Assembly: GCA_947510165.1 (NCBI GenBank)
Contig: CANNSB010000002.1
Coordinates: 123,840-187,839 of the forward strand
Reading direction: 5' to 3'
Length of the DNA stretch: 64,000 bases
Origin: an uncultured Clostridia bacterium
GTDB lineage: Bacteria; Bacillota; Clostridia; Oscillospirales; Ruminococcaceae
A program made the translations under genes and the position numbers. Shown here piece after piece: positions 45,773-64,000 of this stretch (its first letter is position 1; the number at the start of each line of letters is the position of its first letter). Under the pieces are notes generated by a model that saw nothing but the letters and a program-made list of their open reading frames with translations, had not been told where the DNA came from and did no database searches.

Positions 45773-46890
45773 TGTTTGCAAAAATAAGTGGAGCACAGCT
45801 TTTTACAATGTTATATATATCTAGAGTTTTTTCTTCTTTAACATATAATATACACACAGGATCTAAGTTAGATGGGTTGGCTATTCTTGTTGGATCTTTA
45901 ATATCTCTTTTTGTTCAAATTTTGATTGTTATCCCTATCTTCAAATTATATGATCGTATAAAATATGGCAATGTAATAACAGTAGGATATAATTGTTTTG
46001 GTAAAAACGGTATTGTTATAGCTTGGATATATGCTATTTACGCTATATTAGTCGGGATAAATACTATTGTTCAAGCTATGTTTTTTTTAGATAATGCCGT
46101 TTATACAAATGCAAATTCATCCCTTTTAGTTTTAATGTTTATAGGGTTAGTTTTATATGGTGCTATATCTGGGGTTGAGTCTATAGCGCGTGTATCTGCT
46201 ATATTTGGTGTATTTTTTCTTGTTGCCTTTGGATTTATATTTATCGGTTTGATATCTAGTATAGATATTTATAACCTTTCTCCAATATTAGATTATCCTA
46301 TAAAACAGATAGGGATATCTATCTTTGATAATTTAGGAAGAAATACAGAATTAGTTGCTTTTATACTTTTATACCCATATACAAAAGGGGATAAAAAGAA
46401 AACATTTATGTCATATTTGATATTATCTACTATAACTGTACAGATAATAGTGTTTTTAATAACAACAGTTTTGGCGAATTATGCAGGAAGTTTAGTATTT
46501 CCTTTTTACACATTAACTACTATATCATACACATCAATCTTTCAAAGACTTGACTCTTTGCATATGGCGTTGTGGATTGTTTTAGCTTTTATAAAAGCTA
46601 CTATGTATATATTTATTGCTTATAGCTGTATATCTATCTCTTTACCTAAGGTTAAAAAAACTTATATATTTTCTGTTGTTTTTATAGCTATAAGTATAAG
46701 TGTTTATTGGATTCAGTCTAGTTTAGATGCGATAAGATATTTACAAGGATTTATTAATTCTGGTTTTATTGTGTTGATTCTTGTTTTTATTCTTCCATTT
46801 ATCGTTTATATAGTTTATAGATTTAAAAAGGAGAATAGTGTTGATAAAAAAAATATGGTTAATACTGGCTACTCTATTGATACTATCTAG
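45772..46890 (+). CDS. gerKB: Spore germination receptor subunit B (GerKB-type)
   Basis: 372 residues, about ten membrane helices. It is the amino-acid-permease-like part of the receptor and probably holds the germinant site. Starts MFAKISGAQLFTMLYISRVF; ISIFDNLGRNTELVAFILLYPYTKG matches the conserved loop of the GerB family. It overlaps gerKA by one base and gerKC by 53 bases, pointing to tight translational coupling. Confidence 0.93.
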   Translation: MFAKISGAQLFTMLYISRVFSSLTYNIHTGSKLDGLAILVGSLISLFVQILIVIPIFKLYDRIKYGNVITVGYNCFGKNGIVIAWIYAIYAILVGINTIVQAMFFLDNAVYTNANSSLLVLMFIGLVLYGAISGVESIARVSAIFGVFFLVAFGFIFIGLISSIDIYNLSPILDYPIKQIGISIFDNLGRNTELVAFILLYPYTKGDKKKTFMSYLILSTITVQIIVFLITTVLANYAGSLVFPFYTLTTISYTSIFQRLDSLHMALWIVLAFIKATMYIFIAYSCISISLPKVKKTYIFSVVFIAISISVYWIQSSLDAIRYLQGFINSGFIVLILVFILPFIVYIVYRFKKENSVDKKNMVNTGYSIDTI

Positions 46891-48088
46891 TCTTACAGGG
46901 TGTTTAAAAACAATAAATCTTAGTGATAGAGCGATTGTACAGGCTATAGGAATAGATTATGAGGAAGATAAATATAAACTTAGTATACAGATATTTTCCC
47001 CAGAGGGATCTGGAGGACAAACATCAATTGATACTAGTAAACAAAATTCTAAAGTTATTACAACTGAAGGAAAAACTATAGGAGAAGCCATGTCCAAGGC
47101 GGATTTGAAACAAGGAAAGAAGATATTTTATGGTCATAATAGATTAATTATATTAGGAGAAAGCACTGCTGAAAAAGGTTTAGAAAATGTTATAAGTTTT
47201 TTTAATACCGATGCACAATCTAAATCTGATGTTGGGGTGCTTGTTGTTAAGGGAGATGCAGATGAAATATTAAACGCAAAGATTACTCAGGGAATACTTC
47301 CAGCAGAAACGATAGAAAAAATAGTTAGAAATGCGGAGGATACAGGACAATCTTTTCAGGTTAGATTTTATGATGTTGCTAAAAATTATAAAAGTACAAC
47401 AAATTCAGTTAGTATACCTGTAATTAAGCTAGAGGATTCCGAAGGAGATTCAGGAGAGAAAAAAGAAGAAGCTACAGGTGCAGAAAAATCCGAAGGAGAT
47501 TCAGGAGAGAAAAAAGAAGAAGCTACAGGTGCAGAAAAATCCGAAGGAGATTCAAAAGTTATATCTATGGATGGAATAGCTGTTTTTTTAGATGGAAGAT
47601 TAAAGACTTATATAAATCAAGAAAATACAAGGGCTATACAAATTTTATTGCAAAAATTTAAATCTAGTGTAGTTGTTTCAGAATCTGATAGTATTGGGAC
47701 ATCTTCCGTGGAGATTTTTAAGTCTCAAATAAAGATAAATCCCCGTATTAAAGATGGAGCTATGTCTGTAGATATAATTATTAAAACAGATGGAATAGTT
47801 AAAGAAATAATTGTACCTGAAGATAGAGAAGTTTCTGTTTTTGAGTATAAAGATATAGAAGATAGTTTAGAAGAAGTTATAAAAAGTGAAGTTGATAATG
47901 TTTTATATCTAACTTTGAAAGAAAATAATATAGATATTTTTAATTTTATGGATAGAATAAAACAAAAATATCCTTCATATTGGAAGGATAACAGGGATGA
48001 TATTGGAAATATTATTTCAAATCTTGGCTATAACGTTAAGGTTGATGTAAATATAGATAGAACAGGACTTCAGATAAAAGACAAATAG
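46838..48088 (+). CDS. gerKC: Spore germination receptor subunit C, lipoprotein (GerKC-type)
   Basis: 416 residues. Lipoprotein with signal sequence and lipobox LTGC near residue 22, then Ger(x)C domains: SDRAIVQAIGIDYEEDKYKLSIQIFSP, QGKKIFYGHNRLIILGES, KSDVGVLVVKGDADEIL and the C-terminal HAS-barrel-like domain to LQIKDK. GTG at 46838 or TTG at 46841 can serve as start behind AAAGGAGA. A 17-residue unit rich in Ser/Glu/Lys is repeated between the N- and C-terminal domains (encoded at 47438-47554). Ends in a 55-bp palindrome. Confidence 0.93.
   Translation: MLIKKIWLILATLLILSSLTGCLKTINLSDRAIVQAIGIDYEEDKYKLSIQIFSPEGSGGQTSIDTSKQNSKVITTEGKTIGEAMSKADLKQGKKIFYGHNRLIILGESTAEKGLENVISFFNTDAQSKSDVGVLVVKGDADEILNAKITQGILPAETIEKIVRNAEDTGQSFQVRFYDVAKNYKSTTNSVSIPVIKLEDSEGDSGEKKEEATGAEKSEGDSGEKKEEATGAEKSEGDSKVISMDGIAVFLDGRLKTYINQENTRAIQILLQKFKSSVVVSESDSIGTSSVEIFKSQIKINPRIKDGAMSVDIIIKTDGIVKEIIVPEDREVSVFEYKDIEDSLEEVIKSEVDNVLYLTLKENNIDIFNFMDRIKQKYPSYWKDNRDDIGNIISNLGYNVKVDVNIDRTGLQIKDK
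47438..47554 (+). repeat. 51-bp tandem repeat inside gerKC
   Basis: Two identical 51-base units (47438-47488, 47489-47539) followed by 15 bases of a third. They encode SEGDSGEKKEEATGAEK twice and then SEGDS, a flexible charged linker. Exact identity suggests recent or ongoing repeat change without frame loss. Confidence 0.95.
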
Positions 48089-54747: not shown

Positions 54748-55458
54748 ATGAGGAATAGAAATAATAATAATAATAATGAAGAGAGCAATTTTTTTGATTT
54801 AGTTTTTGTGCAATGTTCGGTGGTTGTTTCATTGTTTATAGTTTTAACTTTTATAAATATAATTAATAAAGAGTTTTATAATGATTTAAAAAAAGGTCTT
54901 TCATCAGGTGTAAATAATGATTTTACTTTGGATAAAATTTATAGAAAATTTGCAGATAAAGATAAAGGTGAAGATAGAAATTTATTAGAAGAAAATAATA
55001 ATAAAAAAGAAGATGCAAAAGAGTTACCAGATAATATTCATAAAGAAAAAATAAATTTAGATATAGAAATTGGACCACCTATATCAAAAGGGACTGTTAG
55101 TTCTATATTTGGATTTAGAAATATTAATGGAGAGGAAAATTTTCATACAGGAGTTGACATAGCAGCAGAAAGAGGAACGGATATACTAGGGTCATCAGAA
55201 GGAACAATAGTTGATATTGGAGTTTCAAAAAGTTTAGGAAATTATATTGAAATTGAATCGGTTGGAGGGGCTAAATTTTTATATGCTCATTGTGATGAAA
55301 CTTTTGGAGAAAAAGGAAATATAGTAAAAAAGGGGGAGGTTATTGGAAAAGTTGGTAGTACAGGAGATTCTACAGGAAATCATCTGCATTTTTCTATAAT
55401 AAAAGATGAAAAGTATATAGATCCGTTTCACTATATTGAGAAAGATTTGTATGATTGA
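54748..55458 (+). CDS. SpoIVFA-like membrane protein with M23 (LytM) peptidase domain
   Basis: 236 residues from ATG at 54748, 9 bases after GGAG; two earlier in-frame ATGs overlap that box. N-terminal MRNRNNNNNNEE, one membrane helix (FVQCSVVVSLFIVLTFINII), a charged linker, and a C-terminal M23 domain: SSIFGFRNINGEENFHTGVDIAAERGTDI and HLHFSIIKDEKYIDPFHYI. Zinc ligands H133, D137 and H214 are present. It overlaps by 8 bases an M50 protease gene, the arrangement of spoIVFA-spoIVFB, where SpoIVFA restrains SpoIVFB in the forespore membrane. Alternatively it is a cell-wall endopeptidase. Confidence 0.75.
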   Translation: MRNRNNNNNNEESNFFDLVFVQCSVVVSLFIVLTFINIINKEFYNDLKKGLSSGVNNDFTLDKIYRKFADKDKGEDRNLLEENNNKKEDAKELPDNIHKEKINLDIEIGPPISKGTVSSIFGFRNINGEENFHTGVDIAAERGTDILGSSEGTIVDIGVSKSLGNYIEIESVGGAKFLYAHCDETFGEKGNIVKKGEVIGKVGSTGDSTGNHLHFSIIKDEKYIDPFHYIEKDLYD

Positions 55459-56047
55459 GTTTATTATATTTGGTATAAATATAAAGTTTAAATTTTTATT
55501 TTTTGCAGTAATTTCTTTTTTAGCAATATTGGATAAAACAAATATTTCTATGATAGCTTTATTTAGCAGTCTAATACATGAAATGGGGCATATTATTGCT
55601 AGTTTTATCTGTAAAAAAAAACCAAAAGAGATATCTTTTGAGACATTTGGAATACGTATGTTTCAGCCAGATAAAGTTATACCATATAATCAAGAAATTT
55701 TCATATTATTTTTAGGCCCATTGCTAAATATTATATTATCGTTTATATTTTTATTTTTTTATGAACAAAGTAGCAATTTTTTATTATGGGGATATTCTAA
55801 TCTTATTATAGGAGTTTTTAATCTTCTTCCTATAGGAAGTTTAGATGGTGGAAGAATTTTACATATATTTTTAAAAAAGTTTTTAGATTTAAAAAAATCA
55901 TACTTTATAGGTATGTTATTTTCATTATTATTTTTAGCACCTGTCATATTTATAGGGGTTAAAATAATTTTTGATAGTTATAATTTTAGTTTAATAATAA
56001 CATCAATGTATTTATTTTTAATTATATGTAATAAGGGGAATGATTGA
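55451..56047 (+). CDS. spoIVFB: M50-family intramembrane metalloprotease, SpoIVFB-like
   Basis: 198 residues from ATG at 55451, overlapping the previous stop (ATGATTGA). Zinc motif H43-EMG-H47 in SLIHEMGHIIASFI and the third ligand in NLLPIGSLDGGRIL; five to six membrane helices. In bacilli SpoIVFB cleaves pro-sigma-K to switch on late mother-cell genes. It is shorter than the Bacillus protein (about 288) because the C-terminal CBS-type domain is absent. Other site-2-type proteases of this size exist, so the substrate is inferred from the neighbour. Confidence 0.82.
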   Translation: MIEFIIFGINIKFKFLFFAVISFLAILDKTNISMIALFSSLIHEMGHIIASFICKKKPKEISFETFGIRMFQPDKVIPYNQEIFILFLGPLLNIILSFIFLFFYEQSSNFLLWGYSNLIIGVFNLLPIGSLDGGRILHIFLKKFLDLKKSYFIGMLFSLLFLAPVIFIGVKIIFDSYNFSLIITSMYLFLIICNKGND

Positions 56048-56114
56048 AAAAAGAATTTTATTTTAGTATAATTTTATATAGTATTAAATTGATTTATAGT
56101 ATTGGAGATATATC

Positions 56115-56846
56115 ATGCCTAAATTTTTTATAAATAAAAAATTGATAAGAGATAATATATATGAAATAAATGGTGAGGATGCGCTTCATATAAAAAATTC
56201 TTTAAGAAAAAAGATAGGAGATAGAATAACTTTAAGTGATGGTTGTGGATATGATTACGATTGTATTATAAAAAATATTACCGAATGTATAATTTTATAT
56301 ATACAAAATGCATATATATCTAAAAACGAAGTTAAAAAGGAAATAATATTGTGTCAGGCGTTACCAAAAGGGGATAAATTAGATTTTATTATACAAAAAG
56401 CTGTAGAATTAGGAGTATCTATGGTTGTTCCTTTTATATCAAACAGATGTGTATCTAGACCAAAAAAAGAAACATTATTAAAAAAGAACAACAGATATAA
56501 TAAAATAGCACTAGAAGCAGCAAAACAATCTCTTAGAAGTAAAATACCTATTGTTCATGAAATAGTTTCATTCGAGAAATGCCTTAATATGGTGGATGAA
56601 AAAGATAAGGGGATTATTTTTTATGAAGAAGAAGGTAAAAAGATTTCTTTATTAGAAAAAGAACTATTAAAAGCAGAGCGAATTTTTTTATTTATAGGGA
56701 GTGAAGGTGGGTTTGAAAAACAAGAAATAGAGAGGGCGATTGGAAAAAATTTTAGTATATGCACATTAGGGAATAGAATTTTAAGATGTGAAACAGCATC
56801 TATTACAGCTATATCAGTTTTGATGAATATTATAGGAGAAATTTAA
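56115..56846 (+). CDS. rsmE: 16S rRNA (uridine1498-N3)-methyltransferase
   Basis: 243 residues, SPOUT family. Methylates U1498 of 16S rRNA. N-terminal PUA-like part (MPKFFINKKLIRDNIYEINGEDALHIKNSLRKKIGDRITLSDGCGY), then LCQALPKGDKLDFIIQKAVELGVSMVVPFISNRCVSR, IALEAAKQSLRSKIP, and the SAM knot FIGSEGGFEKQEIERA with LGNRILRCETASITAISVL. TTGGAGA ribosome site. Confidence 0.95.
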   Translation: MPKFFINKKLIRDNIYEINGEDALHIKNSLRKKIGDRITLSDGCGYDYDCIIKNITECIILYIQNAYISKNEVKKEIILCQALPKGDKLDFIIQKAVELGVSMVVPFISNRCVSRPKKETLLKKNNRYNKIALEAAKQSLRSKIPIVHEIVSFEKCLNMVDEKDKGIIFYEEEGKKISLLEKELLKAERIFLFIGSEGGFEKQEIERAIGKNFSICTLGNRILRCETASITAISVLMNIIGEI

Positions 56847-56870
56847 TAAAATATTATCTTAAAGAATTAT
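56837..56870. terminator. Hairpin between rsmE and the sigma-like gene
   Basis: AAATTTAATAAAATAT pairs with ATATTTTATAAATTT (one bulged base, 14-base loop, extending to about 56885). It contains the rsmE stop; the stop of the convergent gene lies in the loop. Confidence 0.5.
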
Positions 56871-57144
56871 ATTTTATAAATTTTTCTATATTTTTTATCC
56901 CTCGTGAAAGATTTCTTGAAACAGTTGATTTATGTACATCTAGCAACTTGGATATTTGAGTTACATTTTTTTGATTATAAAAATATAATATAATAGTTTC
57001 TTTTTGTTTGTTTGAAAGCTCATTAGATATAATTTCTTTTAATATTTTATGAATTTTTGTTATATTTTTTTCATTTGATACATTTTCATCATATGAAGTG
57101 TCTCTTATAAAATCTTGTATTTTATCTAAAGAAACTCTGATCAC
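56854..57144 (-). CDS. Sigma-70 region-4-like HTH protein (96 residues)
   Basis: GTG start at 57144, 8 bases after AGGAGTG. The C-terminal half is a clear sigma region 4 type helix-turn-helix: LSNKQKETIILYFYNQKNVTQISKLLDVHKSTVSRNLSRGIKNIEKFI. The N-terminal half has no region 2, so this is not a complete sigma factor; such small proteins occur in integrative elements and prophages as positive regulators. It overlaps the gene upstream by 23 bases and shares the operator region with the divergent Xre gene. Confidence 0.75.
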   Translation of the reverse strand: MIRVSLDKIQDFIRDTSYDENVSNEKNITKIHKILKEIISNELSNKQKETIILYFYNQKNVTQISKLLDVHKSTVSRNLSRGIKNIEKFIKYNSLR

Positions 57145-57355
57145 TAGTTGTCACACTCCTTTTTGATATGTGTTTATGGTATTTTTCTAGATGTTTTGAT
57201 ATAGATATTAGGTCTGTATATTCATATTTCATTACAGATATTCTTATTTTAATATCATAGTTATCATTTTTAAATTTATTTTTTAATATATTTATTTGAC
57301 TTTTTAATTTTTCTGCAGAAGTTTTGTATTGATAAGAAAGCTGTAAAATAGACAA
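57122..57355 (-). CDS. Small helical protein upstream of the sigma-like gene (77 residues)
   Basis: Starts at TTG 57355 (or ATT 57358) behind AAAGGT with a long spacing. The product, starting MSILQLSYQYKTSAEKLKSQINILKNKF, is a basic two-helix protein with possible coiled-coil pairing and no known motif. It overlaps the sigma-like gene by 23 bases, so both are likely translated together as one regulatory unit. Function unknown; possibly a partner giving the missing N-terminal part of a split sigma-like activator. Confidence 0.55.
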   Translation of the reverse strand: MSILQLSYQYKTSAEKLKSQINILKNKFKNDNYDIKIRISVMKYEYTDLISISKHLEKYHKHISKRSVTTSDQSFFR

Positions 57356-57379
57356 AATTCAACACAACCTTTATAGTTT

Positions 57380-57428
57380 TCTACACGTAATGTGTAATAA
57401 AATCATATTATCACACATTACGTGTAGA
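57380..57428. promoter_or_regulatory. Large palindromic operator between the sigma-like and Xre genes
   Basis: A 16-bp perfect inverted repeat (57380-57395 and 57413-57428) with 17-base spacer. Each arm holds ACACGTAATGTGT, which is itself ACAC-N5-GTGT dyad, so two operator sites lie 30 bases apart, about three turns. This is the typical layout for an Xre/cI-like repressor controlling divergent promoters. Confidence 0.75.
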
Positions 57429-57497
57429 TGTCAACAAAAAAATACAAAATTATTGAAGAATGTAATTAGATATGATATATTGGGAGGTGTTGGGTTC

Positions 57498-57878
57498 GTG
57501 TTAAAAGATAATATAAAAAGACTTAGAAAAGAAAAAAATTTAACTCAAATAGAACTTGCAGAGTATTTAGAGGTTTCGGCAAGTTCTATAGGTATGTATG
57601 AGCAAGGCAGGAGAGAGCCAGATTTTAAAATTTTGAAAAAGATGTCACTTTTTTTTAACGTATCTGTTGATAATCTTATAGATTGTACAAAAATTTCTAC
57701 ATTTAAAAAAGAAGATAGAGATGTAAGTGATTTGATATTTGATATGAATGAATATTTACAAAGACAAAAAGGGCTTATGTTTAACGGACAGATGCTCACA
57801 GATAATGACATAACCATGATAATGGAAGCTTTAAAAGAAGGGCTAAATATTGCTATAGATAAAAATAAAGATAAATAG
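57498..57878 (+). CDS. Xre-family transcriptional repressor
   Basis: 126 residues from GTG at 57498, 8 bases after GGGAGGTG; the frame is open further up to 57390 but that part lies in the operator. N-terminal HTH_3: LKDNIKRLRKEKNLTQIELAEYLEVSASSIGMYEQGRREPDFKILKKMSLFFNVSVDNLI. The C-terminal tail (LTDNDITMIMEALKEGLNIAI) is helical, perhaps for dimerisation. It is followed 11 bases later by an ImmA-like peptidase gene, the same pair as ImmR-ImmA of ICEBs1, where the protease removes the repressor on induction. Confidence 0.88.
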   Translation: MLKDNIKRLRKEKNLTQIELAEYLEVSASSIGMYEQGRREPDFKILKKMSLFFNVSVDNLIDCTKISTFKKEDRDVSDLIFDMNEYLQRQKGLMFNGQMLTDNDITMIMEALKEGLNIAIDKNKDK

Positions 57879-57889
57879 GAGATTATTGA

Positions 57890-58333
57890 ATGAAATGTAT
57901 AGTAGATTATGTTAAAGAAATAAAGAAAAAACATAATTCCAATAATCCTTTTGACATTTGTAAGTTATTAGACATAGAGGTTATATATATAGATCTTCCT
58001 AAAAAAGTTAAAGGTTTTTATGTAAAATTTTTTGATTCACAGTTTATATATATAAATTGTGATATAGAAGATCAGGAAAAAAAATATATTTGTGCACATG
58101 AATTGGGACATGCTCTATTTCATGAAGAGGTTAATAGTATATTTATAAGAGATAAAACTCTTGTAAATAGTGCAAAGTTGGAAAATGAGGCTGATTTATT
58201 TGCGGCATGTCTTTTGTTAAATGATGATATGTTTGATTATGAAAAAACTGGATTTACAACTATAGATCAAATAGCCTTATTCTCTGGAGTTGAAAAAAGA
58301 CTTGTTCAGATGAAGATAGATAGAGCTATGTAA
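57890..58333 (+). CDS. ImmA/IrrE-family metallopeptidase
   Basis: 147 residues. Zinc motif H70-ELG-H74 in KKYICAHELGHALFHEE and the third ligand Glu in LENEADLFAACLLL, typical of ImmA/IrrE (DUF955/COG2856). These enzymes cut Xre-type repressors. TAGGAG ribosome site 8 bases before the ATG. With the Xre gene it forms a two-gene unit; no integrase or conjugation gene follows, so it may be a remnant or a domesticated switch. Confidence 0.9.
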   Translation: MKCIVDYVKEIKKKHNSNNPFDICKLLDIEVIYIDLPKKVKGFYVKFFDSQFIYINCDIEDQEKKYICAHELGHALFHEEVNSIFIRDKTLVNSAKLENEADLFAACLLLNDDMFDYEKTGFTTIDQIALFSGVEKRLVQMKIDRAM

Positions 58334-58383
58334 AAAAATAAAAGATAAAAAATAATTAATTATTTTTTATCTTTTATTTTTTT
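58332..58383. terminator. Bidirectional terminator, 52-bp perfect palindrome
   Basis: Arms 58332-58357 and 58358-58383 are exact complements with no spacer. It holds two bases of the ImmA stop and the whole stop of the convergent TVP38-family gene. Confidence 0.88.
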
Positions 58384-59055
58384 TACAATTGTTTCATAGC
58401 TCATAATTCCTATTAAAGAGGTTATTCCTATAAATAAAAATATAAATATAGCAATAGAGGGGTTTCCACCAACCAGAGTTGCCCCAGCAAATGTGGAGGA
58501 AAGAATAGATGGAATCCTAGCTATATATGATATTATAAAGAATTTTATAGGAGATATGGGAAGGATAGGAATAAAATATATAAGTGTATCTTTTGGAGTT
58601 CCTGGTATTAAAAAAAGCAAAAAAACTATCATTGTAACATTCTTTTGTTTTTTTAAAAATTTAAGTTTTAAAAATTTTGGATGATTGTATATTTTTTTTA
58701 AAATATTATGTCCAAAATGTTTAACTAAATTATAAACAATAATAGTTCCTATAGTTATTCCGATAGAACATATAAGATATCCGTAGATGGATCCATATAA
58801 AACTCCTGCTAAAACTTCTATAGGTTCTCCAGGTATTATAGATATAACAACTTGGATAATTATTATTAATATAAAAATAAGTGTCCCGAATATTCCTTTT
58901 GATTTGATATATTCTGAAAAATTTTTAAATAAATCATTATAATTAATTTTTTGTATAATAGGAATATATTTATATAATAGAAATATAGAAGTTATAATTA
59001 AAATAATAAACCCAATAATAAATATGTATTTTTTCGTATTTTTATTATTTATAAT
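58360..59055 (-). CDS. TVP38/TMEM64 (DedA-like) membrane protein, apparent ATT/ATA start
   Basis: About 231 residues. Membrane helix near the N-terminus (YIFIIGFIILIITSIFLLY), then the SNARE-associated/VTT domain: VISIIPGEPIEVLAGVLYGSIYGYLICSIGITIGTIIVYNLVKHFG and FLLFLIPGTPKDTLIYFIPILPISPIKFFIISYIARIPSILSSTFAGA. Family members are thought to act in lipid movement across membranes. No ATG, GTG or TTG lies in frame before residue 142. The frame opens at TGA 59064-59062, and GAGG (59063-59060) points to ATT at 59055 or ATA at 59052. It follows mtaB closely on the same strand. Confidence 0.85.
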   Translation of the reverse strand: MINNKNTKKYIFIIGFIILIITSIFLLYKYIPIIQKINYNDLFKNFSEYIKSKGIFGTLIFILIIIIQVVISIIPGEPIEVLAGVLYGSIYGYLICSIGITIGTIIVYNLVKHFGHNILKKIYNHPKFLKLKFLKKQKNVTMIVFLLFLIPGTPKDTLIYFIPILPISPIKFFIISYIARIPSILSSTFAGATLVGGNPSIAIFIFLFIGITSLIGIMSYETIVKKIKDKK

Positions 59056-59064
59056 AACACCTCA

Positions 59065-60354
59065 TTAGATAAGATTTCCAAAACATAAATATTCATCGGT
59101 AGAAGAAATTTTAACATCTAAAATTTGTCTAGAAAGATCTTTTGTGGTGTTTATGATAACAGGAGTATAATTTTTTGAATAACCTATTAAAGTGTTTTTA
59201 TCTTTATCAAATTTTTCAAAAAGAACAGATAGTGTTTTACCAATCTGTGATTCTAAAAATATTTTTCTTGATTTATTAGTTGTTTCTATCATTTTTAAGC
59301 ATCTATCGTGTTTTATTTCGGTGGTTAATTGATTATCCATCTTTGCGGCTAGAGTTCCTTCTCTAATAGAGTATGGGAAAACATGGGCTTTTGCAAATAA
59401 AATTTTTTCTGCAAAATGCAAAGATTCTAAAAAATCTGAATGGGTTTCATCGGGAAATCCAACCATAATATCAGTAGTTATAGATGGATTTTCAAAATAT
59501 GTTCTAATATTATATACAACCTCTTCAAATTTTTTTGTATTGTATAGTCTTTTCATATTTTTTAAAGTTTTATCACAACCACTTTGTATTGAAAGATGAA
59601 ATTGGGGACAAAATTTGTTTAATTTTGAAAGTTCTATTATATCATCTTTTGATATAAGATCTGGCTCTATCGATCCTAAACGGATTCTTTTTATATAATC
59701 AATCTCAGAAACTTTTTTTATAATATCTATTAGTTTTAAATTTTGGGTTTGATATAGAGAAAGGTTTATACCTACTAAAACAATCTCTTTAAATCCATTT
59801 TTTCCTAGTGTGGAAATTTCGTCTATTGTATCCTGAGGATTTTTTGATCTTAAAAATCCTCTAGCTTTAGGAATAATACAATAGGTGCAATATTGGTTAC
59901 ATCCATCTTGTATTTTTATAAAAGCACGAGTTTTTTCAGAAAAAGAAGATGTAGACATAGGTTCAAACTCTTCTCCAATTTTGTGTTCATAGATTTCAAA
60001 AATAGGCTGTAGTGTGTTTAAATATTTATTTAGAAGAAAAATGATACCATTTCTATTATATGATCCTGTGATAATATCAGCTTCTTTTATTTCTTTTGCT
60101 TTTTCAGGAAAAGCCTGTGGAAAACATCCAGTAAGAATTGTTATAGAAGATGGATTTTCTCTTTTAAATTTTTTTATAGTTTGTCTAGTTTTTTTATCTC
60201 CTGAAGATGTTACAGTACAAGAGTTTACAACAAATATATCGGGGGATTGATCAGAGCTTACCTTTGTGAAACCATTTTTAATAAATTTTTCTGCTAAAAC
60301 TTCTGTTTCATATTGGTTCACTTTACAACCCAGAGTAAAGAATGCAACTGTCAA
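59065..60354 (-). CDS. mtaB: tRNA t6A37 methylthiotransferase
   Basis: 429 residues from TTG at 60354, 6 bases after AGGTG; an upstream GTG at 60363 lies in that box. MtaB adds a methylthio group to t6A37 in tRNAs reading ANN codons. UPF0004 domain MTVAFFTLGCKVNQYETEV with Cys in TLGCK, VNSCTVT and LTGCFPQ; radical-SAM cluster in IQDGCNQYCTYCIIPKARG; C-terminal TRAM domain (LIGYSKNYTPVIINTTKDLSRQILDVKI). Followed after 9 bases by the TVP38-family gene. Confidence 0.93.
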   Translation of the reverse strand: MTVAFFTLGCKVNQYETEVLAEKFIKNGFTKVSSDQSPDIFVVNSCTVTSSGDKKTRQTIKKFKRENPSSITILTGCFPQAFPEKAKEIKEADIITGSYNRNGIIFLLNKYLNTLQPIFEIYEHKIGEEFEPMSTSSFSEKTRAFIKIQDGCNQYCTYCIIPKARGFLRSKNPQDTIDEISTLGKNGFKEIVLVGINLSLYQTQNLKLIDIIKKVSEIDYIKRIRLGSIEPDLISKDDIIELSKLNKFCPQFHLSIQSGCDKTLKNMKRLYNTKKFEEVVYNIRTYFENPSITTDIMVGFPDETHSDFLESLHFAEKILFAKAHVFPYSIREGTLAAKMDNQLTTEIKHDRCLKMIETTNKSRKIFLESQIGKTLSVLFEKFDKDKNTLIGYSKNYTPVIINTTKDLSRQILDVKISSTDEYLCFGNLI

Positions 60355-60370
60355 AATATTCACCTAACTT

Positions 60371-60410
60371 ATAATATAATCACAATAAATACATATTGTG
60401 ATTATATTAT
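60371..60410. promoter_or_regulatory. Palindrome upstream of mtaB
   Basis: 16-bp perfect arms, 60371-60386 and 60395-60410, spacer 8 bases, immediately upstream of the mtaB ribosome box. Contains TATAAT-like boxes on the minus strand. Possible operator or leader hairpin. Confidence 0.5.
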
Positions 60411-60427
60411 AGTATATCGATATATTA

Positions 60428-60493
60428 TTTACAATTAAATTATTTAGTATTTACAATTAAATTATTGACTATTTGTTTAACTACTGTTATATT
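60428..60493 (+). promoter_or_regulatory. Direct repeat and promoter of the HPr-like gene
   Basis: TTTACAATTAAATTATT occurs twice, at 60428-60444 and 60450-60466, period 22 bases (two helical turns). The second copy runs into TTGACT (60465-60470), which with TATATT (60488-60493) and a 17-base spacer forms a sigma-A promoter. Confidence 0.6.
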
Positions 60494-60534
60494 CTAGATA
60501 TAAATAAAAATGTAAAATACATGGAGGTTTTATT

Positions 60535-60762
60535 ATGAAAAAAGTTAGAATAAAGCTTAGAGCAATAGATGATGTTAAAGTATTTGTAAATAGTGTAGCA
60601 AAATATGATTTTGATGTTGATTTAGTTTCTGGTAGATATGCTATTGATGCAAAATCTATAATGGGAATATTTAGCTTAGACTTGTCTAACGAGATTGAAT
60701 TAGAAGCCCATACAGATGATGATAAAGGATTTCTAGAAGAAATTAAAGATTTTATTGTTTAA
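60535..60762 (+). CDS. HPr-like protein without the phosphorylatable His
   Basis: 75 residues. Alignment by eye with HPr: VAKYDFDVDLVSGRYAIDAKSIMGIFSLDL matches ASKYDADVNL...LKSIMGVMSLG of the PTS phosphocarrier. The active-site GIHARPA segment is replaced by AIDDVK, so there is no His15 and PEP-dependent transfer is excluded. The regulatory Ser is kept as S41 in KSIMG. It may act like Crh, a regulatory HPr, if an HPr kinase is present. GGAGG ribosome site and its own promoter; the dacF-like gene follows after 84 bases. Confidence 0.85.
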   Translation: MKKVRIKLRAIDDVKVFVNSVAKYDFDVDLVSGRYAIDAKSIMGIFSLDLSNEIELEAHTDDDKGFLEEIKDFIV

Positions 60763-60846
60763 TATTAATTAATTATTTTAATATTATATGAATAACCTAC
60801 TATATTTTTTAATATTATAATATTAAGAAATACGGAGGTTATTTTT

Positions 60847-62052
60847 ATGTTTAAAAAAAATAAAATTATATCCAGTATGTCTATTTTTATTATTATTAAT
60901 ATATTATTTTTTAATATTTTAGTATTTGCAGAAGAGGTTGCGGTTTATAAAGATGAAAGCCCTATTTTTAATACTATTGTTGATATAGACAAAAACTTTG
61001 ATATATCCGCAAGTTCAGGGATACTTATTGAACAGTCATCAGGGCAGGTTTTGTATGAAAAAAACCCAGATCAAAAAATGTCTCCTGCATCTATAACAAA
61101 AGTTATGACTTTACTATTAGTAATGGAGGCTTTAGACACTGGAAAGATATCTGAAGATGATATGATAAAAACATCAGAACATGCATCATCTATGGGAGGA
61201 AGCCAGATTTGGTTAGAAGTTGGGGAAGAGATGAGTTTTCACGATATATTAAAAGCTACAATTATTTCTAGTGCCAATGATGCTGCTGTTGCTTTAGCTG
61301 AGCATATTTCTGGAAATGAAGATGAGTTTGTTTCTATGATGAATAGTAGAGCAAAAGAATTAGGAATGTTAAATACTCAGTTTAAAAATGCAACAGGGCT
61401 AGATGAAGAGGGGCATTATAGTACAGCAAGAGATATTAGTATTATGTCTTCTAAACTAATAAATTATGAAGAGATACAAGTATATACTACTAGATGGATG
61501 GATAGCCTTAGAGGAGGAGAAATTTCCCTTGTAAATACAAATAAATTAGTTAGATATTATGATGGAATAACAGGACTTAAAACGGGAACAACAAATGATG
61601 CTGGCAGTTGTCTTACAGCTACGGCTACAAGAGAAAATTTTGGTTTAGTAGCTGTTGTTTTAGGTAGTGCTACATCTAAAGAGAGATTTTCATCTGCTTC
61701 TAGATTACTAGATTATGGATTTAATAATTATGAAATATATGAATTAGATAATATAGATGATTTAGAGGATATAGAAGTTCCCAATGGAATAAAAAATAAT
61801 ATAAAGCCTAATCTAGATATAGTTAAAAAAATAGTTGTTAAAAAAGGAACTAAAAATCTTGTAGAAAAAAGATTCGATATTCAAAATATTATTATGGCGC
61901 CTGTTGAAGATGGTCAGAAGGTTGGAATATTGGAGTTTTATTTAGAAGATAAAAAAATTGGAGAGGTAGATATAAAAGTTAATGAAAAAATTGATAAAAT
62001 AAATATATCAACTTCATTTTGGAAGATGATAAAGTATATATTTTCTATTTAA
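60847..62052 (+). CDS. dacF: D-alanyl-D-alanine carboxypeptidase (DacF-like)
   Basis: 401 residues. Low-molecular-weight penicillin-binding protein that trims stem peptides; in spore formers DacF controls cortex cross-linking. Signal peptide FIIINILFFNILVFAEE, then S11 peptidase motifs S82-I-T-K85 (MSPASITKVMT), S142-A-N144 (IISSANDAA) and K245-T-G (ITGLKTGTTN), and the C-terminal PBP5-type domain. GGAGG ribosome site. The vegetative DacA has the same motifs, so the spore role is inferred from the genomic setting in which it occurs. Confidence 0.92.
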   Translation: MFKKNKIISSMSIFIIINILFFNILVFAEEVAVYKDESPIFNTIVDIDKNFDISASSGILIEQSSGQVLYEKNPDQKMSPASITKVMTLLLVMEALDTGKISEDDMIKTSEHASSMGGSQIWLEVGEEMSFHDILKATIISSANDAAVALAEHISGNEDEFVSMMNSRAKELGMLNTQFKNATGLDEEGHYSTARDISIMSSKLINYEEIQVYTTRWMDSLRGGEISLVNTNKLVRYYDGITGLKTGTTNDAGSCLTATATRENFGLVAVVLGSATSKERFSSASRLLDYGFNNYEIYELDNIDDLEDIEVPNGIKNNIKPNLDIVKKIVVKKGTKNLVEKRFDIQNIIMAPVEDGQKVGILEFYLEDKKIGEVDIKVNEKIDKINISTSFWKMIKYIFSI

Positions 62053-62058
62053 ATTATA

Positions 62059-62095
62059 TTAAATAGAGTTTAAGATATTCTTTTACTCTATTTAA
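62059..62095 (+). terminator. Possible terminator after dacF
   Basis: TTAAATAGAGT (62059-62069) pairs with ACTCTATTTAA (62085-62095), 15-base loop, no T-run beyond the stem, so it may be weak. Confidence 0.45.
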
Positions 62096-62115
62096 TAAAA
62101 AAATTAAAAAAATCA

Positions 62116-62144
62116 TTGACAATTATATAGACAGTTGATATAAT
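62116..62144 (+). promoter_or_regulatory. Consensus promoter of the tRNA cluster
   Basis: TTGACA (62116-62121) and TATAAT (62139-62144) with a 17-base spacer: exact sigma-A consensus, 27 bases before the first tRNA. Confidence 0.85.
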
Positions 62145-62170
62145 ATGTGAAGTAAGTTAATTGTTTGCAT

Positions 62171-62244
62171 GCGGGTGTAATTCAATGGCAGAATTCCAGC
62201 CTTCCAAGCTGGTAGCGTGGGTTCGATTCCCACCACCCGCTCCA
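62171..62244 (+). tRNA. tRNA-Gly (TCC)
   Basis: Cloverleaf GCGGGTG...CACCCGC acceptor, anticodon stem CCAGC/GCTGG with loop CTTCCAA (anticodon TCC), T-loop GGTTCGATTCC, encoded CCA. Confidence 0.95.
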
Positions 62245-62274
62245 TTTTTTAAAAATTTAATATTAAAAATATAT

Positions 62275-62351
62275 GCGCCCATAGCTCAGCTGGATAGAGC
62301 AACTGCCTTCTAAGCAGTAGGTCTCAGGTTCGAATCCTGATGGGCGTACCA
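62275..62351 (+). tRNA. tRNA-Arg (TCT)
   Basis: Acceptor GCGCCCA/TGGGCGT (first pair G-T), anticodon stem ACTGC/GCAGT with loop CTTCTAA (anticodon TCT), T-loop GGTTCGAATCC, encoded CCA. Confidence 0.95.
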
Positions 62352-62359
62352 TTTTTTAT

Positions 62360-62437
62360 GGTGGGTATAGCTCAGTTGGTTAGAGCGCCAGATTGTGGCT
62401 CTGGAGGTCGTGAGTTCGAATCTCATTATCCACCCCA
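62360..62437 (+). tRNA. tRNA-His (GTG)
   Basis: Acceptor GTGGGTA/TATCCAC with the extra G-1 (62360) facing C73, anticodon stem CCAGA/TCTGG with loop TTGTGGC (anticodon GTG), encoded CCA. Lies 8 bases after tRNA-Arg. Confidence 0.95.
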
Positions 62438-62456
62438 TTTATTCCAATTATATTGT

Positions 62457-62532
62457 TGGGGTATAGCCAAGCGGTAAGGCAACGGACTTTGACTCCGTCA
62501 TTCCGATGGTTCGAATCCATCTACCCCAGCCA
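62457..62532 (+). tRNA. tRNA-Gln (TTG)
   Basis: Acceptor TGGGGTA/TACCCCA, anticodon loop TTTGACT (anticodon TTG) on stem CGGAC/(G)TCCG, T-loop GGTTCGAATCC, G73 and encoded CCA. In an organism with GatCAB this tRNA would be charged through Glu-tRNA(Gln). Confidence 0.93.
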
Positions 62533-62839
62533 TTTATAAAAATAATCTGATAATATTATTTTTCAAAGGGTAGTATTATCACATTACTTTTATTAACAAT
62601 TTAGTTTAAACTTTATATTCCTATACCTCACGTATTCGCAATACTGCACTTATTGAACTCTTGGTATGTATTGTCTCTTTTAACAGAGGTTCGCTCGTTA
62701 CAATAAGTTGTAGCTTAATGTAAGTTGTGGCAAAACTAATATGTTTGAGTATTTAAAGTTTATTAAATTTATTCAATTTTAGAAAAGATTTCAAAAAAAT
62801 CAAGAGCCTACAGATGCCACTTGAATCATCTATAAACTC
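62533..62839. other. Gene-free stretch after the tRNA cluster
   Basis: About 300 bases, less AT-rich than surrounding spacers at 62625-62740. Holds a repeated TAAGTTGT (two copies about 17 bases apart near 62704-62730), a TGATAATA/TATTATCA inverted pair near 62548-62582 and a hairpin at 62800-62843 (TCAAGAG/CTCTTGA). No ORF with a start codon and ribosome site is found; the best open frame is 44 codons on the minus strand without a start. Confidence 0.4.
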
Positions 62840-62868
62840 TTGACAGTATATGTAAAACGGGGTATAAT
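62840..62868 (+). promoter_or_regulatory. Consensus sigma-A promoter
   Basis: TTGACA (62840-62845), 17 bases, TATAAT (62863-62868). Together with the tRNA promoter it is the only exact consensus I found in this window, suggesting a highly transcribed product. Confidence 0.8.
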
Positions 62869-62871
62869 TTG

Positions 62872-62985
62872 ACCCGTAAAACAACTCTGATAAGTTTTAT
62901 ATGATGTTGTAGTTAACATCTTGTAAAGCGTATGCCTAATGTTATCTAGATAATAACATTAGGTTATTGGAGTTTTTTATTTGCA
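62872..62985 (+). ncRNA. Candidate small RNA or structured leader
   Basis: Predicted transcript of about 110 bases starting just after the consensus promoter. Features: a stem GATGTT/AACATC around 62903-62920; hairpin A with 11-bp arms CCTAATGTTAT (62935-62945) and ATAACATTAGG (62953-62963); hairpin B, AATAAC/GTTATT (62952-62968), mutually exclusive with A and closely followed by a six-T run (62973-62978). It may be a free small RNA ending there, or an attenuator-type leader of the gene at 63078. It matches no RNA family I can recognise. Confidence 0.5.
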
Positions 62986-63077
62986 AAAAAATAAATCTTT
63001 AAAATTAATATAACATGATTATTAAACTATGTCAATAAAAAATTTTCAAATAAGATTATTAAATGAGGTTTTTATAA

Positions 63078-63884
63078 ATGGATTTAAGTGATATATTAGT
63101 TCTTTTATCTACATCTGTAGCTTTAGGAATAGCAGTAACTCCTTCAGCTATAAATTTATATCATAAATGTAAAAAGTTAAAGATAGTATTATTACCAGAT
63201 TCTGAAATGTTAATAATGTTTCCTTTACAATTAACAATAAATATTCCTTTTTCTATATATTCAAATAAAGATATTATTTTGGAAGATTATAGTATAAAAA
63301 TAATAGAAAAAAATAATAAAAAAAAGTATATAGAATGTAAATCATCAATCTTTATTCCATATTTATCAGAATCAGCAAACTATGGATCCCAAAGTATATC
63401 TCTAAATAAAAATTATACTAAAACTTGTATCCAATTGTGTAAAAAACAATTAAAAAATTTAAATATAAGATATGTAGATAAAGAATTTAAAAGTTATTTA
63501 TCTACATCTATGGCATATAAGTATTTGTCTAAAGAATTAAAAGATTCAAATGAATCTTTTAACAATCAGGATGATGAAAATATCCGTGATAAAATTAAAT
63601 TAGATTTTAAAGATTTTTTTAATAATAGTATGGGTCTAATAAAAGAAGAATTAAAATATAAAATAAAAGAAGGTTTATTTTTAGAATCAGGCAAAGAGTA
63701 TATTATTGAATTTATATTTATATATGATCAGAAAAAAGCATATAAATGCAATTATGAGTTTAATATTAACTCTGATGATTATAATAAATTAATATCAAAT
63801 ATTGATATTAAGGTAGAGAATAATTTATCGGCATGTAATTATTCTTATCCAAGTGTAGAGAAAGATATAAAAAAATATAAATAA
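63078..63884 (+). CDS. Unrecognised membrane-anchored protein (268 residues)
   Basis: Good GAGG ribosome site before the ATG. N-terminus MDLSDILVLLSTSVALGIAVTPSAINLYHK is a membrane helix, then KIVLLPDSEMLIMFPLQLTINIPFSIYSNKDIILEDYSIKII looks like a beta-sandwich-type segment, followed by charged helices (KDSNESFNNQDDENIRDKIKLDFKDFF) and a final beta part (GKEYIIEFIFIYDQKKAYKCNYEFNI). I know no family. It lies behind the tRNA cluster, a common place for acquired genes, and behind a strong promoter with an attenuator-like hairpin pair. Its composition is as AT-rich as its neighbours. Confidence 0.6.
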   Translation: MDLSDILVLLSTSVALGIAVTPSAINLYHKCKKLKIVLLPDSEMLIMFPLQLTINIPFSIYSNKDIILEDYSIKIIEKNNKKKYIECKSSIFIPYLSESANYGSQSISLNKNYTKTCIQLCKKQLKNLNIRYVDKEFKSYLSTSMAYKYLSKELKDSNESFNNQDDENIRDKIKLDFKDFFNNSMGLIKEELKYKIKEGLFLESGKEYIIEFIFIYDQKKAYKCNYEFNINSDDYNKLISNIDIKVENNLSACNYSYPSVEKDIKKYK

Positions 63885-64000
63885 TTATTTAAACCTATAT
63901 GTTTTTATTATATTATTTTACAAATATATTTTTTATCTATATATCTATTTAGTATAACTATATATAAGTATTATTTATTCTTTTTGTATTAGAAGTAAGT

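Follow-up and report, generated by a model that had tools for sequence, protein, structure and literature searches.

Most known damage-inducible sigma-like regulators come from plasmids, prophages and islands. UviA is under SOS control, and the clostridial sigma factors of the UviA/TcdR type are larger proteins than the one considered here, with more sigma regions. Tn916 (orf7-orf8-orf9) and PBSX (Xre/XkdA/Xpf) combine a repressor and a sigma-like activator in one control region. CapP/CapH of CBASS, in which an M78 protease is put to damage-linked use with an Xre partner, controls an anti-phage operon. The ImmR/ImmA pairs of ICEBs1 and TnSmu1, an Xre repressor and an M78 anti-repressor, control an integrative element, and induction of TnSmu1 by mitomycin C has been reported (PMC10233336). 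In Deinococcus, the chromosomal M78 protease IrrE (PprI) is reported to cleave the Xre repressor DdrO (PMC8072749), and the system is described as answering DNA damage (PMC8072749, PMC10904395). UviA/TcdR-type factors are described as products of plasmid, phage or island genes (PMC4885068), Xpf is covered in PMC10141391 and Porf7 in PMC11658703, and SigO-RsoA of B. subtilis is presented as two proteins, of 22.54 and 9.00 kDa, that jointly make one sigma factor (PMC10141391).

The locus described here places an Xre repressor gene (xre) and an M78 protease gene (immA) back to back with two small genes, n77 and sig. By analogy, its putative sensor half resembles ImmR/ImmA and IrrE/DdrO; its output half would be comparable to UviA, Xpf or SigO-RsoA, provided that sig is a sigma factor. 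The locus differs from each in other respects. No integrative element of the ICEBs1 or TnSmu1 kind was seen, the apparent output being the n77-sig pair, and the locus is chromosomal, whereas the Tn916 and PBSX units belong to an ICE and a prophage. DdrO controls many repair genes directly, whereas here a single control region carries the exact operator and the output would be a regulator pair. The M78 protease is shared with CapP/CapH, but no anti-phage operon is adjacent. The likeness to SigO-RsoA lies in there being two proteins, with a joint sigma role only if n77-sig is a sigma factor; the pairs differ, as far as size and predicted shape go, in that neither protein here exceeds roughly 100 aa and the partner is predicted to be a hairpin. 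Titles and abstract openings of open-licence papers held no description of the module.

The four genes and their products

The locus occupies positions 56854-58333 of the window, the 64,000-nucleotide stretch of DNA that was analysed, in a 1.32-Mb genome of 19 contigs (G000; the other two genomes of the genus are G001 and G002). An ORF check of the window placed n77 and sig leftward and xre and immA rightward. The original prediction had described a leftward pair of 77 and 96 residues overlapping by 23 bases, and the ORFs are as described: n77 (57122-57355, minus strand) has a TTG start and a helical predicted product, and sig (56854-57144, minus strand) encodes sigma-70 region 4 only (PF08281). 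The 23-base overlap is peculiar to the window genome; in G002, n77 is 72 aa long and overlaps sig by 8 bases. The rightward genes likewise proved to encode Xre and ImmA, with Pfam matches to HTH_3 (7.8e-17) and Peptidase_M78 (PF06114, 2.2e-17). The listed Xre ORF, of 162 aa, begins within the operator region. The start is likely the GTG at 57498 rather than the listed ATG, giving an xre of 126 aa (57498-57878, plus strand); it is preceded by a likely ribosome-binding site, GGGAGGTG (57482-57489, plus strand), that is kept in all three genomes of the genus. ImmA (57890-58333, plus strand) has 147 aa and an HELGH motif.

The best PDB match of Xre was the ImmR DNA-binding domain of ICEBs1 (7t8i, E 1.1e-16). 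ImmA was the sole M78 match found in the genome, as it was in each genome of the genus, and its profile gave a single PDB match, to 7t5t of CapP/CapH (E 2.1e-6). An HTH_3 repressor gene followed by an M78 gene with HExxH fits the ImmR/ImmA type, and by architecture the locus is a member of the Xre-ImmA proteolytic-switch kind, in which ImmA would cleave Xre. The cut would fall in the C-terminal part of Xre, judging from the protein family and a conserved LMFNG motif found there by alignment.

The sig product matched Sigma70_r4_2 above the Pfam cut-off (E 1.8e-7), and its profile matched region 4 of FliA, WhiG and SigW in the PDB. Sigma families were its best matches in PHROGs, NCBIfam, Pfam and the PDB, PHROGs also giving weak matches to a Q-like antiterminator and to terminase small subunits. 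An AlphaFold model of sig made from two sequences had a pLDDT of 51.7. For n77, Pfam and NCBIfam gave no match, a sigma region-2 match included; AlphaFold, from three near-identical sequences, predicted a two-helix hairpin (mean pLDDT 85). A PDB search with n77 returned only coiled-coil-like matches, and a fold search was uninformative. As regards a split sigma factor, the 96-aa protein has region 4, and the 77-aa protein is a predicted hairpin without a region-2 match; n77 and sig are at most a possible split or two-subunit sigma factor.

Compared with G002, sig, xre and immA are under purifying selection (dN/dS 0.078, 0.065 and 0.067, with 0.173 for rsmE for comparison). The n77 value of 0.62 accompanies a dS that is unusually low (0.107), and three comparisons span 0.35-1.17. 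Between the window and its congeners the synonymous rate of n77 is 0.107-0.136, and that of xre and immA 0.36-0.47, a hint of a further constraint on the DNA of 57122-57355.

Operators and LexA boxes in the control region

The control region holds the predicted 16-bp inverted repeat, which has arms of 24 nt that are 92% complementary, with the outermost 16 perfect. Within it are the two ACAC-N5-GTGT sites that had been noted, spaced 30 bp apart. Putative operator 2, ACACGTAATGTGT (57383-57395, plus strand), lies 3' of the leftward promoter; operator 1 (57413-57425, minus strand) is the identical 13-mer, inverted, in the promoter spacer. The candidate leftward promoter (57434 to 57407, minus strand) is of the sigma-A type, TTGACA-16-GATAAT with a TG before the -10, and has 11 of 12 consensus bases. 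No other match in the region looks more like a promoter, but because the scan overall did no better than shuffles (15 found against a mean of 14.5), its weight comes from comparison. The 221-bp control region has a mean identity of 98% in G001 and G002, where the spacer operator is intact and the downstream operator has its last base changed. Among 15 aligned Xre-ImmA-sig modules, 14 have the operator within the leftward promoter spacer, in the order TTGAC(A/T), 2-3 bases, an ACAC-N5-GTGT-like operator and the -10; in G141 and G015 the operator match is imperfect. The exception, G233, has no operator in the leftward spacer and has sites downstream and in the xre promoter. G086 was kept out of this count because it was found by the search pattern for that very block. 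An additional site is present in the xre promoter of G096, G141, G563, G682, G719 and G750. Repression of the leftward n77-sig pair by Xre is thereby supported comparatively.

The original prediction called for a search for further operator sites. In the whole genome the exact 13-mer occurs twice, both times at this control region; one mismatch adds no site and two mismatches give six, which are taken as noise because a reversed control pattern at equal tolerance gave 10+5. A wide Xre regulon in the window genome was rejected, given the confinement of the exact 13-mer to one control region, and for the same reason the output of Xre-ImmA should be the n77-sig pair. Searching with the operator and -35 pattern alone gave 29 places, 11 of them at Xre modules beside sig, ten of these with ImmA, and 18 away from modules; a reversed control gave 10 (counted by eye). 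Five of the ten ImmA modules were newly assembled in this way, and the sig of one of these five, G035, had been an earlier weak match. A second operator pattern gave six places in 395 genomes, two with Xre and sig (one of them with ImmA), and its reversed control one.

GAAC-N4-GTTC is given as the SOS box of B. subtilis (PMC4234289). Three modules first drew attention to such a LexA box, which then also appeared in all five modules that the operator pattern had added (three exact, two near). With LexA scored as present when TIGR00498 was matched above cut-off, the box was found in the control region of nine of nine LexA-positive module genomes and of none of five LexA-negative ones (Fisher p 5e-4 by genome, 0.008 by genus). 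The box is exact in G015, G009, G563, G035, G682 and G109 (shuffle frequency 0 to 0.008) and matches at 7 of 8 positions in G096, G719 and G750 (0.06-0.09). The exact box of G563 lies in a part that was added when its control region was extended to the reassigned n77 start. G000, G001, G002, G141 and G012 have LexA below cut-off or absent, and no box; G141 and G012 have weaker S24-type matches below the LexA cut-off. Outside these counts are the ImmA modules of G086 and G233 and the Xre-sig module of G371, none with a box in the control region; no box was found in the Xre-only modules of the LexA-positive genomes G531, G492 and G526. The window module has no LexA box nearby, and LexA was found in none of the three genomes of the genus, of which G001 is only 83% complete. 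The locus is thus outside the LexA regulon in the window genus, and because neither box nor LexA is present there, a damage response in the window would be read from relatives and from the protein family.

An exact search of 13 genomes with GAACAWWTGTTC gave 24 distinct sites, against nine for the reversed control. Five are at modules, six stand before recA (L208), dinB (L198, L199, L215) or a radical-SAM repair-like gene (L211, L214), as judged by eye, and 13 are elsewhere, several within coding frames. With sites before recA and dinB and at modules, the GAAC-N4-GTTC box behaves as the local LexA box. Upstream of lexA itself an exact box was present at none of 11 loci and a 7-of-8 box at two. 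In the window genome, two GAACATTTGTTC palindromes lie 45 bp apart in one long coding frame (L203, G000:C3:4224-4280).

An exact box also lies within 310 bp upstream of n77 at 15 of 43 loci (10 of 26 genera), and a one-mismatch box at six. Fourteen of these 15 loci are without ImmA, L140 being the sole ImmA module among them. As a control, exact boxes were found at 3 of 270 other genes of the n77 loci, two of the three encoding S24-type repressors; the resulting Fisher p of 6e-12 overstates the strength of the difference, because loci of one genus are not independent. From these upstream boxes in relatives, the n77-sig pair looks SOS-regulated, and so DNA-damage-inducible, in many members of the order. 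S24-type repressors (family f14) were considered as genes directly opposite n77-sig and rejected: at eight of the nine loci scanned with ARAGORN, n77 has as neighbours tRNA-Thr and tRNA-Tyr genes that point away from it. At L120, L124, L128, L132, L136, L141 and L146 there are exact LexA-type boxes about 460-870 bp upstream of n77, which more likely serve other genes because they are beyond these outward-facing tRNA genes; in L128, L132 and L141 the other gene near the box encodes an S24-type repressor.

Chromosomal setting and distribution

The module is present in all three genomes of the genus. The window and G002 align collinearly from 55000 to 62927 at 91% identity; for G001 only the VTT-mtaB side is confirmed, because its contig ends inside sig. 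Pfam identified M50, M23, rsmE, mtaB, HPr, DacA, gatB and ligA among the neighbours, with VTT below cut-off. The prediction that no integrase, relaxase or phage gene is near agrees with this, the flanking proteins given to Pfam being housekeeping or unmatched. The VTT-domain membrane protein gene (58360-59061, minus strand) is open in all three genomes and likely has a rare start such as ATT or ATA, because its upstream end has no ATG, GTG or TTG. The G002 alignment stops just past a four-tRNA cluster (62171-62532); the unaligned part, 62928-64000, is a possible small island, and an ORF of 268 aa behind the cluster (63078-63884) has no significant Pfam match. Farther off, 46838-48088 encodes what by eye is a spore-germination-type lipoprotein that contains a nearly perfect internal repeat made up of EKSEGDSGEKKEEATGA units.

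The window n77 had no match in 50,697 phage records or among the viral contigs searched, of which profile scans were unproductive. One record filed as an unverified bacteriophage (L220, MT836668.1) matches a Vescimonas n77 and carries n77-sig; its other genes, KdpD/KdpE-like and YitT-like by eye, look bacterial. By eye, prophage-like surroundings were seen at L117 (terminase-like gene) and L129 (lysozyme-like gene), where a sig-less n77-like gene is opposite an Xre/M78-like pair, and at L062, which has a lone sig homologue.

A search for the four-gene module in other genomes, as had been suggested, recovered Xre-ImmA-sig modules in 16 genomes of 12 genera (G000-G002, G096, G141, G012, G015, G009, G563, G035, G682, G719, G750, G109, G086 and G233). 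In the modules of G015, G009, G109 and G086 n77 was not detected, and the module genes of G233 are hidden within longer ORFs of other frames. Among 11 genomes, the G023 and G004 stretches (L068, L069) gave no module match. In other genera, too, there are housekeeping surroundings; a check for restriction of the module to intact mobile elements turned up no such restriction. Its presence in all three genomes of the genus, these surroundings and the lack of a phage match for the window n77 support the prediction of a stand-alone switch, here a chromosomal one. The n77 profile matched in 44 of the 395 genomes of the order, and sig lies directly 3' of n77, mostly overlapping it, at 45 of the 52 loci with an n77 match. 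From the 45 n77 places, all but those of G331, G403 and G336 were fetched. By eye, in the L112/L119/L120/L113 group, n77-sig is directly 5' of uvrC in one genome, 5' of a SpoIIGA-like gene in one, and beside rpoN in two. On the 861-kb replicon of Vescimonas fastidiosa (L153, NZ_AP023416.1) the pair is annotated as a hypothetical protein and a sigma factor; an S24-type repressor is near, with repeated AAGAA-N2-TTGTG-like sites upstream of it.

Domestication of the locus, the other part of that prediction, is one possible reading. The n77-like genes of L117 and L129 in prophage-like surroundings favour it, but loss of LexA together with Xre-ImmA control explains the locus equally well, because n77-sig is a recurrent unit of the order. 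A mobile-element module was rejected on selection, collinearity, housekeeping neighbours and the phage searches, with L117, L129 and L062 as counter-cases, and the surroundings speak against an element immunity region.

Signal, output and meaning of the proposed switch

The locus is probably a chromosomal, vertically kept stress switch in which Xre-ImmA controls the n77-sig operon, with DNA damage the most likely signal. Xre would bind the two operators, the one in the spacer shutting off the operon. Upon a signal, most likely DNA damage, ImmA would cleave Xre, and with Xre removed n77 and sig would be made together. The two may then act jointly on RNA polymerase, as a sigma-region-4-based activator at promoters elsewhere. 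In LexA-bearing relatives the LexA box in the same control region would let two damage-responsive repressors converge; in the window genus, where LexA was not detected, Xre-ImmA would be the remaining control.

The damage signal gains support from the LexA boxes in relatives. The switch might instead work as proposed with another signal, such as zinc release, oxidative stress or a quorum regulator, the boxes of the relatives being a separate layer. The window genus, without LexA and without a box, and a reported zinc activation of IrrE (PMC8072749) speak for such a signal; since the presence of the box coincides with that of LexA in all 14 ImmA modules of tested LexA status, and PprI/IrrE is reported to be activated by ssDNA (PMC10904395), we regard it as rather unlikely. 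On the output side, n77-sig could be another DNA-binding regulator with a region-4 fold, a repressor, an antiterminator or a phage-type late activator. That region 4 alone is present, that n77 shows no similarity to sigma factors and is predicted to form a hairpin, and that PHROGs gives the weak matches noted above would suit it, but the top matches of sig in four databases are sigma families, and we hold this alternative, too, to be somewhat improbable.

Two further explanations were weighed. A prophage or ICE immunity-region remnant, retained by chance, would account for ICEBs1 ImmR as the nearest solved relative of Xre and for the prophage-like surroundings of L117, L129 and L062, but it is very unlikely given the purifying selection, the presence in all genomes of the genus, the housekeeping neighbours and the bacterial look of the only phage record matched. 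Xre/metalloprotease pairs have been described as toxin-antitoxin systems (PMC10538038), and the window pair has a weak NCBIfam similarity, far below cut-off, to the spr1629 repressor/antitoxin model. An M78 toxin and Xre antitoxin to which n77-sig is merely adjacent is nevertheless highly improbable, because in 14 of 15 modules an operator sits within the promoter of n77-sig, which links Xre-ImmA with that leftward operon.

A bolder extension of the proposed stress switch is possible, if doubtful: n77-sig would be a two-part sigma factor forming a second, delayed SOS output arm across the order, with Xre-ImmA as an add-on lock that is the only damage sensor in LexA-less, genome-reduced lineages, where a single sigma pair may govern the entire damage response.

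In sum, what is new here is a LexA box linked to the presence of LexA in module control regions and found upstream of the n77-sig pair. If the proposal is true, the damage response of these Clostridia would have a new layer: a sigma-like pair on the chromosome, controlled by LexA in many genera of a single order and additionally locked by Xre-ImmA in some. The targets of n77-sig would be readable from RNA-seq of a cultured relative. Lineages with LexA and the box, and lineages with neither, would form a natural experiment on an identical output, and what an M78 protease senses would therefore become directly testable.
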